A stretch of 64,000 bases of DNA from Chitinibacter sp. FCG-7 (GTDB taxonomy: Bacteria; Pseudomonadota; Gammaproteobacteria; Burkholderiales; Chitinibacteraceae): positions 2,542,001-2,606,000 of the forward strand of contig NZ_CP157355.1 in NCBI RefSeq assembly GCF_040047665.1, in the 5' to 3' direction. Of the stretch, positions 25,060 through 55,165 are shown in pieces (position 1 is the first letter of the stretch; each line of letters opens with the position of its first letter). The position numbers and the translations under genes were made by a program. Under the pieces are notes generated by a model. It worked only from the letters and a program-made list of their open reading frames with translations, searched no databases and was not told where the DNA came from.

Positions 25060-27249
25060 ATGCCGTCTTTGTCCATCCCGGAAATTGGTGCCATTTGTGC
25101 GGGCACTCATGGTGATCCTTTTTCAGTCTTGGGCATGCATCTGGTCGATGGGGTTTTGCAAGTGCGTGTTTGGCTGCCTGATGCGAGCGAGTGCAGCCTG
25201 ATCGAGAGCAAAACCGGCAAAAAGCTGGCCGATTTTGAGTGCATCGACGAGCGTGGCCTGTTTGTGGTCGAGGTGCCACGGCGCAAAAATCATTTTGCTT
25301 ACCGCCTGTGCGTGACCTGGCATGGCGAAACCGTTGAGATTGAAGACGCCTATCGTTTTCCGCCGGTGCTGGGCGATATGGATTTATGGCTCTTGGGCGA
25401 GGGCAATCAGCTACGCCCTTACGAGCGCCTCGGCACCCATTTTCGCACCATCGATGGCGTAGACGGCGTCGCTTTTGCCGTTTGGGCGCCGAACGCGCGC
25501 CGCGTTTCGGTGGTGGGCGATTTCAATTACTGGGATGGCCGCCGCCATGTGATGCGTTTGCGCCGTGAATGCGGCGTGTGGGAAATTTTCCTGCCCAGCG
25601 TCGTTGAAGGCCAAGGCTACAAATACGAAATCATCGATCAGCACGGCGCTTTGCAAATCAAAGCCGACCCGTATGGCTTCTCGGCTGAATTGCGCCCGGC
25701 AACGGCGTCGCGCGTTGCGCGCTTGCCAGCATGGGTGGACGGCACGCAAACGCGTAAAGAAGCCAATGCATTTAACGCGCCGATTTCGATTTATGAAGTG
25801 CATCTGGCGTCGTGGCGTCGTCGCCCCGAAGACGGCAATCGTTGGCTGTCGTATCGCGAACTCGCCGTTGAGCTGATTGATTACGTCAAATACATGGGTT
25901 TCACGCACATCGAATTGCTGCCGGTGAACGAGCATCCATTTGATGGTTCATGGGGGTATCAGCCGCTAGGGCTTTATGCGCCTACTTCGCGCTTTGGTAC
26001 CCCTGATGATTTTCGCCATTTAATTCAAACGGCGCACGAAAATGGCATTGGCGTGATTCTCGATTGGGTGCCGGGGCATTTTCCGAGCGATAAACACGGT
26101 TTGGCGCAATTTGACGGTTCGCATTTATACGAGCACAGCGATCCGCGCGAAGGTTTTCACCAAGACTGGAATACGCTGATTTACAACTTCGGCCGCAACG
26201 AAGTGCGCAATTACCTGATCGGCAACGCGCTGTACTGGATCGAGCGCTACGGCATCGATGGCTTGCGCGTCGATGCGGTCGCGTCGATGCTGTACCGCGA
26301 TTATTCGCGCAAAGACGGCGAATGGATTCCGAATCAATTTGGCGGCCGCGAAAATCTCGAAGCCATCGATTTTATGCGCCGGATGAACGAAGTCGTCGGC
26401 GTCGAGCGTCCTGAAGCGATTACGCTGGCCGAAGAATCGACGGCGTTTCCGTCGGTATCGCGCCCGCCCGCGATGGGCGGCTTGGGCTTTCATTACAAAT
26501 GGAATATGGGCTGGATGAACGACACGCTGCGCTATATGCAGCAAGATCCAGTTCATCGCAAATACCATCATCACCATATGACGTTTGGTTTGGTCTACGC
26601 GTTTACCGAGAATTTCGTGCTGCCGATTTCGCACGACGAAGTCGTTCACGGCAAAGGCTCGATGCTGGCGAAAATGCCGGGCGATTGCTGGCAGCAATTT
26701 GCCAATTTGCGCGCTTATTACGGCTTTATGTGGGCGCATCCGGGCAAAAAATTGCTGTTTATGGGTTGCGAATTTGCGCAGGGGCGCGAGTGGAATCACG
26801 AGACGAGTCTCGATTGGCATCTGGTCGACGATCCGGACAACGGCTGGCACCGTGGTGTGCAAAATCTGGTTCGCGATTTGAATACGACTTATCGCAATAC
26901 GCCGGCGCTGTATCAGATCGATTTCGATCATCGCGGCTTTGAATGGATTAGCCACGACGACGCCGATAATTCGATTTTGAGCTTTATTCGCAAGGGCGAG
27001 GTCGACGATGAATTGATCGTCGTTGTCAGCAATTTCACGCCAGTGCCGCGCCACGGTTATCGCCTCGGCGTACCCCGCGCTGGCGTTTACAGCGAAATTT
27101 TGAATTCAGATTCCGAATATTATGGCGGCAGCAACACCGGTAATCTGCAACTGCCTAGCGAGGGTATTGCCGCGCACGGCAGACCTGATTCTGTTTGCAT
27201 GACTATACCCCCGCTGGCGACGGTGTATTTGCGCTGGAGCAAGTGCTAA
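25060..27249 (+). CDS. glgB: 1,4-alpha-glucan branching enzyme GlgB
   Basis: From ATG 25060 (ribosome site GAGGA six bases before) the protein has 729 residues. It carries an N-terminal CBM48 pair, the GH13 barrel with [18 protein letters not shown] (nucleophile Asp), [11 protein letters not shown] (acid Glu) and [14 protein letters not shown] (third Asp), and the C-terminal beta domain ending [19 protein letters not shown]. It adds alpha-1,6 branches to glycogen. It overlaps glgX by TAATG and opens the glgBX-pgm-glgCAP run. Two 49-bp-spaced GGGTAT/(G/A)TACCC pairs lie inside conserved parts of the gene. Confidence 0.98.
25954..26002 (+). repeat. 49-bp-spaced GGGTAT/GTACCC pair inside glgB
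   Basis: Exact 49-bp span within codons for the conserved [11 protein letters not shown]...FGTPDD region of GlgB. One base of the right hexamer differs from the intergenic consensus. The segment uses the codons GGG and CTA. A coincidental match is possible for this copy alone. Confidence 0.4.
27162..27210 (+). repeat. 49-bp GGGTAT-N37-ATACCC match inside the 3' end of glgB
   Basis: Both hexamers are perfect and the spacing is exact. The encoded residues [16 protein letters not shown] align without a gap to the E. coli GlgB C-terminus, so this is not an insertion. It uses AGA, ATA and CCC codons. Confidence 0.55.
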
Positions 27250-54438: not shown

Positions 54439-55165
54439 GCGGATGGCCATCGAGCCGGTGCAGGCTGAGTGTGCTGCCATCCAGTTGCAGATAGCCGCCT
54501 TGCCCCTGATGCCAGTCGGGCAAGACATAGCGCGTACCTGATGGGTATATGTGTACAGCTGGCTTGTGTGTATGGCCGTGGATCAATACCCTGCTGGTGT
54601 ATTTTTGCATTGCGGCCTCAATCGCGGCATCGTTCACATCCATGATCATCATGGCTTTGTGCTGGTTCATCGCTTGCGATTTCTGCCGCAATTTGGCCGC
54701 TTCGCGGTCGCGAATCCGGCGTGGCAGATGCAGCCAGATCCATTGCACCAGCCGGTTGCGCGCCAGCTTGCGATAGCGCTGATAGGCCAGATCGTCGGTG
54801 CAATACGCATCGCCATGCGCCAGCAGCAACGCTTGCCCGGCAGGATTGATCACGCTCGGGTCGGCAATAATGCGCAGGCGCGCCTCGCGGGCAAAGCGCT
54901 GGCCGGGCAGAAAATCGCGGTTGCCTGGCATAAAGTACAGCGCCACCCCGCTGTCGGCCAGTTGCGCCAGCTCGCGCGCTATCTCGCCATAAAAGGTGTC
55001 GTCCAGCTGATCGTCGCCCAGCCAGTATTCAAATAGATCGCCCAGGATATACAGCGCTTGCGCCTGCTTGGCGGTGCGCGCCAGAAAATGCCGAAATGCC
55101 GCTACGGTGGCCGGGTCTAGCGGGCTCAGGTGTAAATCCGAGATGAAAAGCGTAGGACGGTTCAT
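54416..55165 (-). CDS. lpxH: LpxH, UDP-2,3-diacylglucosamine pyrophosphatase
   Basis: The 249-residue calcineurin-type phosphoesterase has FISDLHLS (about 6-13), LGDLFEYWLGDD, MPGNRDFLPG, LAHGDAYCTDD and IHGHTHKPAVH, the complete dimetal set of LpxH. It hydrolyses UDP-diacylglucosamine to lipid X in lipid A synthesis at the inner membrane. It lies downstream of ppiB on the same strand, after a terminator, and overlaps the convergent secreted-protein gene. A 49-bp palindrome match covers the HGHTHKP codons. Confidence 0.95.
   Translation of the reverse strand: MNRPTLFISDLHLSPLDPATVAAFRHFLARTAKQAQALYILGDLFEYWLGDDQLDDTFYGEIARELAQLADSGVALYFMPGNRDFLPGQRFAREARLRIIADPSVINPAGQALLLAHGDAYCTDDLAYQRYRKLARNRLVQWIWLHLPRRIRDREAAKLRQKSQAMNQHKAMMIMDVNDAAIEAAMQKYTSRVLIHGHTHKPAVHIYPSGTRYVLPDWHQGQGGYLQLDGSTLSLHRLDGHPLTAPVQP
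54543..54591 (+). repeat. 49-bp GGGTAT-N37-ATACCC match inside lpxH
   Basis: Both hexamers perfect, exact spacing, inner ACAGC. On the coding (minus) strand it encodes RVLIHGHTHKPAVHIYP with AGG, GTA, ACA, CCA and ATA codons. The peptide is family-conserved, so the DNA pattern must have arisen by codon choice. Confidence 0.6.

Follow-up and report, generated by a model that had tools for sequence, protein, structure and literature searches.

Going by general background and by the main text of Frye et al. (2013; PMC3630211), the DNA uptake sequences (DUS) of the Neisseriaceae and the uptake signal sequences (USS) of the Pasteurellaceae occur as hundreds to thousands of dispersed copies, also within genes and, at the ends of genes, in inverted pairs, and they show dialects between genera and restriction to clades. 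The element considered here is a spaced dyad, GGGTAT-N37-ATACCC, present many times in a 64,000-nucleotide stretch of the chromosome of Chitinibacter sp. FCG-7 (NZ_CP157355.1, positions 2,542,001 to 2,606,000; "the window," to which positions refer). Like DUS and USS, it is found in hundreds of dispersed copies, which lie also in coding sequence and there exceed codon-level chance; unlike them, with their short contiguous core (about 9–12 bp) that works singly, it is a 49-bp spaced unit whose lone hexamers are not enriched, and the distribution of ComP-type pilins does not follow it. That the dyad exists, with a fixed spacing and with conservation at the level of DNA, is established, as is its confinement, among the genomes searched, to three genera.

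Other families of dispersed sequences offer partial parallels. Repetitive extragenic palindromic (REP) sequences, bacterial interspersed mosaic elements (BIME) and miniature inverted-repeat transposable elements (MITE) are copied elements, with inverted repeats near gene ends; unlike these, the dyad shows no insertion at aligned sites and has no common interior. The matS, parS and SlmA/Noc sites are dispersed palindromic protein sites, but they are far fewer, shorter and confined to regions of the chromosome, whereas the dyad has some 800 copies in an unclustered spread. The highly iterated palindrome of cyanobacteria, HIP1, also occurs in coding DNA. It is a contiguous 8-mer, GCGATCGC, whereas here the strongly conserved symmetric parts stand 37 bases apart. 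HIP1 is nevertheless like the dyad in being palindromic and genome-wide, as described in PMC4390886. Among the titles, abstract openings and matches listed there was no earlier description of the dyad in these genera, although preprints and most subscription journals lay outside the scope of that search and a description elsewhere is possible; the main text of PMC3630211 contains no word beginning with "Chitini."

Abundance and Anatomy of the Dyad

An earlier note on this stretch had held that a 49-bp pattern embedded in several of its genes was not due to chance, and the counts bear this out: GTAT-N37-ATACCC has 29 matches in the window on both strands, representing 19 distinct places, compared with 0.03 in dinucleotide shuffles. 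Over spacings of 0–119, GGGTAT followed by ATACCC occurs at 37 only (10 times), and 15 of the 19 ATACCC hexamers in the whole window have a partner at the expected place. The source genome (G000; one contig of 3,583,667 bp) has 528 matches on the forward strand and 559 on the reverse; a reversed-pattern control gives 5 and 2 (7 in total). Since both full hexamers are present at 291 of these matches, the number of distinct places is about 796 (528 + 559 − 291).

Finer statistics were taken from a sample made up of the window and 40 stretches of 20 kb across the genome (864 kb, about 24%), in which a simple home-made finder called 713 genes with approximate starts. All self-complementary hexamer pairs at spacings of 0–89 were counted, so that sites were not preselected by their ends; GGGTAT-N37 ranked first in G000 (69) and in the congener G003 (18), and second (5), behind A-runs, in Deefgea G015. 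In Chitinilyticum G014 it was counted 4 times and the top pair, with 9, was an interior one in the same register, GCCATT-N7-AATGGC. Among the forms of the dyad the exact one leads with 69, twice the number for the most frequent change, outer G to A (35, both ends combined). No other self-complementary hexamer pair exceeds 6 at spacing 37, and all other pairs together sum to 343, which equals the background at other spacings (326–387). With no compensatory pairs present, it is the sequence of the ends that is fixed and not just their pairing, as expected of a signal in DNA rather than RNA.

Within the half-site GGGTAT, positions 3 to 6 are nearly invariant, and the changed base in one-mismatch sites is the outermost G in 59 of 83. 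Inward of the ends lies a weaker element, C11 T12 G13 n A15 G16 (CTNNAG-like), followed by an A+T-rich middle; beyond the ends, the spacing and this weak inner consensus the copies have nothing in common. Measured between centres, the two ends are 43 bp apart (about four helical turns) and the two inner elements 23 bp, with 10 bp separating each end from its inner element; all contact elements may therefore face the same side of the helix. The interiors of intergenic copies have a slight excess of self-complementarity (8.06 of 18 pairs, compared with 7.41 ± 0.24 for shuffled arms); coding copies have none (5.60 vs 5.56).

Selection on Codons

In the 716 kb of coding sequence in the sample, sites with no, one and two mismatches, scored over the end hexamers, number 19, 41 and 53. 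Twenty synonymous-codon shuffles gave means of 0.15, 3.65 and 28.4 for these classes, with maxima of 1, 8 and 36, so that 60 sites with at most one end mismatch stand against about 4 in the shuffles; given 53 observed and 28.4 shuffled, the two-mismatch sites can be only partly real. A further 81 sites with at most one mismatch lie in the 146 kb of intergenic DNA and 11 straddle a gene edge. With the same mismatch limit, coding sites number 60 at spacing 37, 12 at 38 and 4 at 39, the other spacings between 30 and 49 having at most 2 each, and intergenic sites number 81 at 37 and at most 1 at every other spacing; the minor 38/39 class (a 50/51-bp unit) is thus found in coding sequence only.

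Outside dyads, lone GGGTAT/ATACCC hexamers are fewer in coding sequence (227) than in the shuffles (275.5 ± 9.9), and it is therefore the pair that forms the unit. The extended half-site GGTAT-N4-CTGNAG is in excess there (13 vs 2.4); four such sites in the whole sample have more than two partner mismatches at spacing 37, and two of these four have a one-mismatch partner at spacing 38. As to codon usage, the suggestion that the matches use otherwise uncommon codons was right for three codons: in the end hexamers ATA accounts for 18 of the 33 codons for Ile (compared with 3.1% elsewhere), CCC for 16 of the 24 for Pro (22.9%) and AGG for 2 of the 6 for Arg (1.9%). It failed for AGA (0 of 6), ACA (3 of 43) and TTA (1 of 24), which show no excess.

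Conservation between Species

Coding sites were compared among G000 and its congeners G001, G003, G004 and G005; congener pairs use the same codon at 55–58% of the positions that encode the same amino acid. A site was counted as kept if it had at most one end mismatch at the orthologous place, a level reached by 31–35% of random 6+6 windows. From G003 to G005, 14 of 16 sites were kept (14 of 15 in the reverse direction), and from G000 to G005 6 of 7 (reverse, 6 of 8). The smaller sets gave 2 of 2 from G000 to G003 and 3 of 4 from G003 to G000; 2 of 2 from each of G003 and G005 to G001, and 3 of 3 from each to G004; and 1 of 1 from G000 to G001 and likewise to G004. Where the amino acid is the same in G003 and G005, codons are identical at 61 of 75 positions over the ends (42.8 expected) and 121 of 163 in the inner part (91.0 expected), compared with 448 of 791 in the 90-nt flanks (461.8 expected); the excess of synonymous conservation therefore ends at the motif edges. 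End codons lie above expectation in all ten species comparisons. These results, together with the codon shuffles (run on the 24% sample instead of the full genome), uphold the proposal of selection at the DNA level, for which the earlier note had named precisely these two controls.

Intergenic sites recur as well. In 113 orthologous intergenic gaps a site was found in both species in 8, in G003 only in 2, in G005 only (searched with wider margins) in 8, and in neither in 95 (Fisher p about 1e-6). The interiors in six of the eight shared gaps have 9 to 12 of 37 positions identical, which is near chance, and in the other two 18 and 26; it follows from the near-chance values that the interior is nearly free or that sites recur in permissive gaps.

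Four sites of the window, those in the tetratricopeptide repeat (TPR) gene, ispD, ispF and lpxH, were aligned with orthologs from public and sampled genomes. The TPR-gene site carries two mismatches in all four other Chitinibacter rows and in both aligned Deefgea rows (about 50% protein identity), and three in the two Chitinilyticum rows; the search yielded no motif-free ortholog of this gene to align. For ispD the mismatch count is one in all four other Chitinibacter rows, in both aligned Deefgea rows and in one of the two Chitinilyticum rows (4 in the other), compared with 2 to 7 in 22 motif-free rows. At the ispF site two mismatches are seen in 4 of 4 other Chitinibacter and 2 of 5 Deefgea rows (the others have 3, 4 and 4), five in both Chitinilyticum rows and 4 to 8 in 22 motif-free rows. 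The lpxH site has a single mismatch in all four other Chitinibacter rows and 5 to 10 in four Deefgea rows, and among the aligned rows is kept in Chitinibacter only. The sites in the TPR gene, ispD and ispF thus extend to Deefgea, and those in ispD and ispF are absent from the orthologs of the motif-free genera. This pattern indicates that some sites predate the genera and that others are younger or have been lost.

The ispD gene of the window has a separate peculiarity, an in-frame insertion of about 47 codons (49174–49313) that forms a palindromic element with 46-nt arms, 93% complementary. It is not present in ispD of G001, G003, G004 or G005, and a 19-nt piece of it recurs at L048:988 and L067:9666.

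Sites in the Window

Eight intragenic sites with exact spacing had been claimed for the window. Seven stand as described (27162, 27582, 29827, 48641, 49411, 50321 and 54543), and the eighth, at 25954, is one base off (GTACCC). The gene names given for them (glgB, glgX, pgm, ispD, ispF, lpxH and the TPR gene) hold, as does the count of about ten intragenic ATACCC hexamers of which seven have a partner: the plus strand shows seven with and three without (9579, 29218 and 37542). The sites are as follows.

2870..2918: exact dyad, intergenic, convergent genes either side
8086..8134: dyad GGGTAT..ATACAT inside gene 7316–8236; two mismatches in G005 also, one end base changed
8352..8400: one-mismatch dyad, intergenic, convergent genes either side
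10374..10422: one-mismatch dyad, intergenic by the gene calls used
15995..16043: exact dyad, intergenic by the gene calls used; overlain by a 143-aa open frame without Pfam match
18315..18363: one-mismatch dyad, intergenic by the gene calls used
22169..22217: exact dyad, intergenic
23083..23131: two-mismatch dyad GGGTAT..ATACTA, intergenic
25954..26002: dyad with one end mismatch (GTACCC) inside glgB; end hexamers identical in G005
27162..27210: exact dyad in the 3' part of glgB; ends intact in G005
27582..27630: exact dyad inside glgX; ends intact in G005, interior much changed
29827..29875: exact dyad inside pgm; scored as not kept in G005, with four end mismatches, three of which are an alignment gap
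37242..37290: exact dyad, intergenic, convergent genes either side
48641..48689: dyad ACGTAT..ATACCC inside the TPR gene
49411..49459: dyad AAGTAT..ATACCC inside ispD (48892–49728)
50321..50369: dyad CCGTAT..ATACCC inside ispF
50776..50824: exact dyad just 3' of ispF, sharing 8 bases with the end of the convergent gene 50817–53522
53622..53670: two-mismatch dyad across the start of gene 53626–54438
54543..54591: exact dyad inside lpxH, gene on the minus strand
57134..57182: exact dyad, intergenic, convergent genes either side

The gene at 53626–54438 encodes a 270-aa protein whose secretin-like Pfam matches are weak and below the cut-off.

Placement on the Chromosome

Sites are unclustered and scattered as if at random (mean 3.45 per 20 kb, variance 3.33), and no bias toward origin or terminus is visible by eye over the 40 stretches. 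Coding sites occupy all three frames on both gene strands, which rules out a shared peptide as their cause, as the earlier note had argued; by gene fifths they number 8, 11, 11, 14 and 16, a weak lean to the 3' side. Intergenic sites often lie shortly 3' of a stop codon, and convergent gaps are enriched (29 of 80 sites; of the 436 gaps that measure 60 bp or more, 69 are convergent; Fisher p about 7e-5), while divergent gaps hold 8 of 80 sites and make up 85 of 436 gaps. The position of 21 of 81 intergenic sites less than 60 bp upstream of a start speaks against strict avoidance of promoters. At G000:C1:345839-349793, four dyads with alike interiors follow one another in steps of about 1.3 kb, perhaps in a tandem gene array.

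Distribution among Genomes

Full dyads (spacing 37 or 38) number 109–304 in 15 of the 43 genomes of the family and 0–2 in the other 28. Six of the carriers belong to Chitinibacter, two to Chitinilyticum (a sampled stretch is identical to C. aquatile) and seven to a genus that we take as Deefgea, the nearest matches being D. rivuli and D. chitinilytica at 79–81% identity. Among 399 genomes of the order, more than three full dyads are found in the six drawn carriers alone, and among 369 genomes of the class more than two in G000 alone. The interior varies by genus, AGCCATT being prominent in Chitinilyticum (16 sites) and partly so in Deefgea (14 sites). No comparable dyads were seen in motif-free genera (four genomes, 100 kb each); one of the motif-free set, G007, has counts of 11–12 at several spacings of one word pair, presumably an ordinary repeat.

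In a tree of up to six proteins around ispF, Chitinilyticum stands apart from Chitinibacter and Deefgea with weak support, and monophyly of the carriers was not rejected (approximately unbiased test, p-AU 0.145, flagged for too few replicates), so that a single origin is neither supported nor rejected. No viral contig contained the pattern in a strict form, a weak test in that this form itself occurs only 9 times in the 864 kb of G000. Phage records matched window positions 46042–51000 in 26 cases; among the five matches listed, each covers 13–14% of the query and two are annotated as ATP-binding cassette (ABC) transporters.

As a separate observation, G039, from another family of the same order, has 12 forward and 8 reverse matches to GTAT-N37-ATACCC, compared with 0 and 1 for the control, but only three full dyads; the excess is weak.

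Possible Roles of the Dyad

Given the fixed spacing of four turns, the invariant ends and the symmetry, the dyad is very probably read by a dimeric protein on double-stranded DNA. Each 49-bp unit would form a single two-fold-symmetric recognition site, read from one face of the helix by a homodimeric or tetrameric protein. As to what such reading serves, we tentatively favour a self-marker akin to an uptake sequence over the site of a chromosome-organising protein. The resemblance to uptake sequences lies in the copy number, the unclustered spread, the presence both in genes and after stops, the restriction to a clade, the genus-variable interior and the peak at the exact form. Fragments of DNA bearing the dyad would be preferred in natural transformation, and this preference would spread and maintain sites wherever codons or spacers permit; such a drive would explain the upkeep of hundreds of sites that are separately dispensable. 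In keeping with this role, all 15 genomes with the motif encode ComP_DUS-family pilins, ComEC and ComEA. In Simonsiella muelleri, 1294 copies of sim/kingDUS stand in a dyad arrangement, possibly indicating dimer-based recognition, according to the main text of that study (Frye et al., 2013).

Several observations weigh against a self-marker of this kind. Pilins of the ComP_DUS family (PF16732) are present in all 15 genomes with the motif and indeed in 43 of 43 in the family, the ComEC family likewise in 43 of 43, and the ComEA family in 43 of 43 (42 above the cut-off); the competence genes examined are thus not specific to carriers, being found in the 28 motif-free genomes too. The reader protein was not found among ComP-family, ComEC, ComEA and HU/IHF proteins, none of which separates the 15 carriers from the 28 non-carriers. 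Coding sites in G003 have close densities in coding DNA with an ortholog in the stretch compared (16 in 174 kb) and without one (11 in 150 kb), and there is therefore no sign of a distinction between self and foreign DNA. The uptake sequences known to us are short and are not widely spaced dyads. The spacing of sites is not significantly more even than random (coefficient of variation 0.84–0.85 vs 0.97 ± 0.11), and two stretches of low G+C have no site, where about 1.3 empty stretches of 40 are expected by chance. Finally, inner codons are clearly conserved for G003 and G005 only, other pairs being near expectation, and from G003 to G000 they fall below it (13 of 31; 17.5 expected).

An architectural role, though doubtful when taken by itself, is nearly as likely as the uptake role: the dyad would then be the site of a nucleoid or chromosome-organising protein, specific to the lineage, whose dimers bend or bridge the chromosome at some 800 sites. 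The two-fold symmetry, the A+T-rich centre and contacts spaced in phase with the helix (43, 23 and 10 bp) would fit a cytoplasmic dimer; also in favour are the chromosome-wide spread without visible bias to origin or terminus and the low share of sites in divergent gaps; but some 800 position-fixed sites are, in our judgement, many for an architectural protein, sites close upstream of starts are not rare (the 21 of 81 above), and counts of the HU/IHF family, present in all 43 genomes, do not strictly track the motif (4–5 in carriers, 3–6 in others). Some other process at the DNA level, such as repair, replication, modification or packaging, could read the dyad and leave the same genome-wide pattern, which we consider unlikely: a palindrome has no polarity, which argues against roles like those of Chi or the FtsK orienting polar sequences (KOPS), and the copies lack a common short contiguous palindrome typical of methylation.

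That the copies are RNA hairpins acting as terminators is very improbable, despite the position of intergenic copies close after stops, their enrichment between convergent genes and the small excess of self-complementarity in their interiors. Coding copies show no such excess and no complementary hexamer pair replaces GGGTAT/ATACCC at spacing 37, and on these two grounds a hairpin is rejected as the general role; moreover, a T-rich tail is found at 21 of 75 gene ends only and the window has no Rfam match. A hairpin as a second use at some gene ends is plausible. Still less credible is a mobile or REP-like element spreading by insertion, to which the fixed length, inverted ends and many copies might point. 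At the four sites aligned across genera there is no insertion relative to the orthologous genes, the copies are alike in little beyond their ends, coding sequence contains the minor 50/51-bp class, and no pair of occupied and empty sites differing by the unit appeared in the congener and cross-genus alignments. The lack of insertion and the unlike interiors, near chance identity even in six of the eight shared gaps, are grounds for rejecting a copied element, and the copying that the earlier note had offered beside selection is not supported.

Whichever role applies, the dyad shows clearly that synonymous sites can be under selection for a function other than coding. It is possible that we are dealing with a chromosome-wide address system of an undescribed kind, in which one dimeric protein in three genera reads hexamers four helical turns apart; in such a system the sites, written into codons and at the same gene positions across genera, might either mark self DNA or anchor the chromosome. 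If the favoured uptake mark is correct, it would be of a long spaced-dyad type unlike those known to us, and the origin of uptake specificity would become testable outside the Neisseriaceae and Pasteurellaceae, in chitin degraders. If the dyad is instead the site of a nucleoid protein, it would reveal a sequence-specific chromosome organiser that constrains codon choice genome-wide.

Other Repeats

No hidden short uptake word was found among the 14 top 9-mers and 14 top 10-mers of G000, which are words of tandem repeats. Those of the GTGAGGT type rank among the most over-represented 10-mers of the G000 sample, with arrays in several stretches; a long six-base tandem array, (GAAGCA)n, from L039:10166 onwards is the source of most copies of the top 10-mer. 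In the window, seven-base tandem repeats of the GTGAGGT or TCTCACG type are intergenic, at 8412–8480, 19327–19359, 19700–19767, 20160–20273, 36587–36616 and 63680–63712. A 150-nt repeat of a different kind is present in two copies, 71% alike, at 55560–55709 and 56145–56294 in neighbouring genes.

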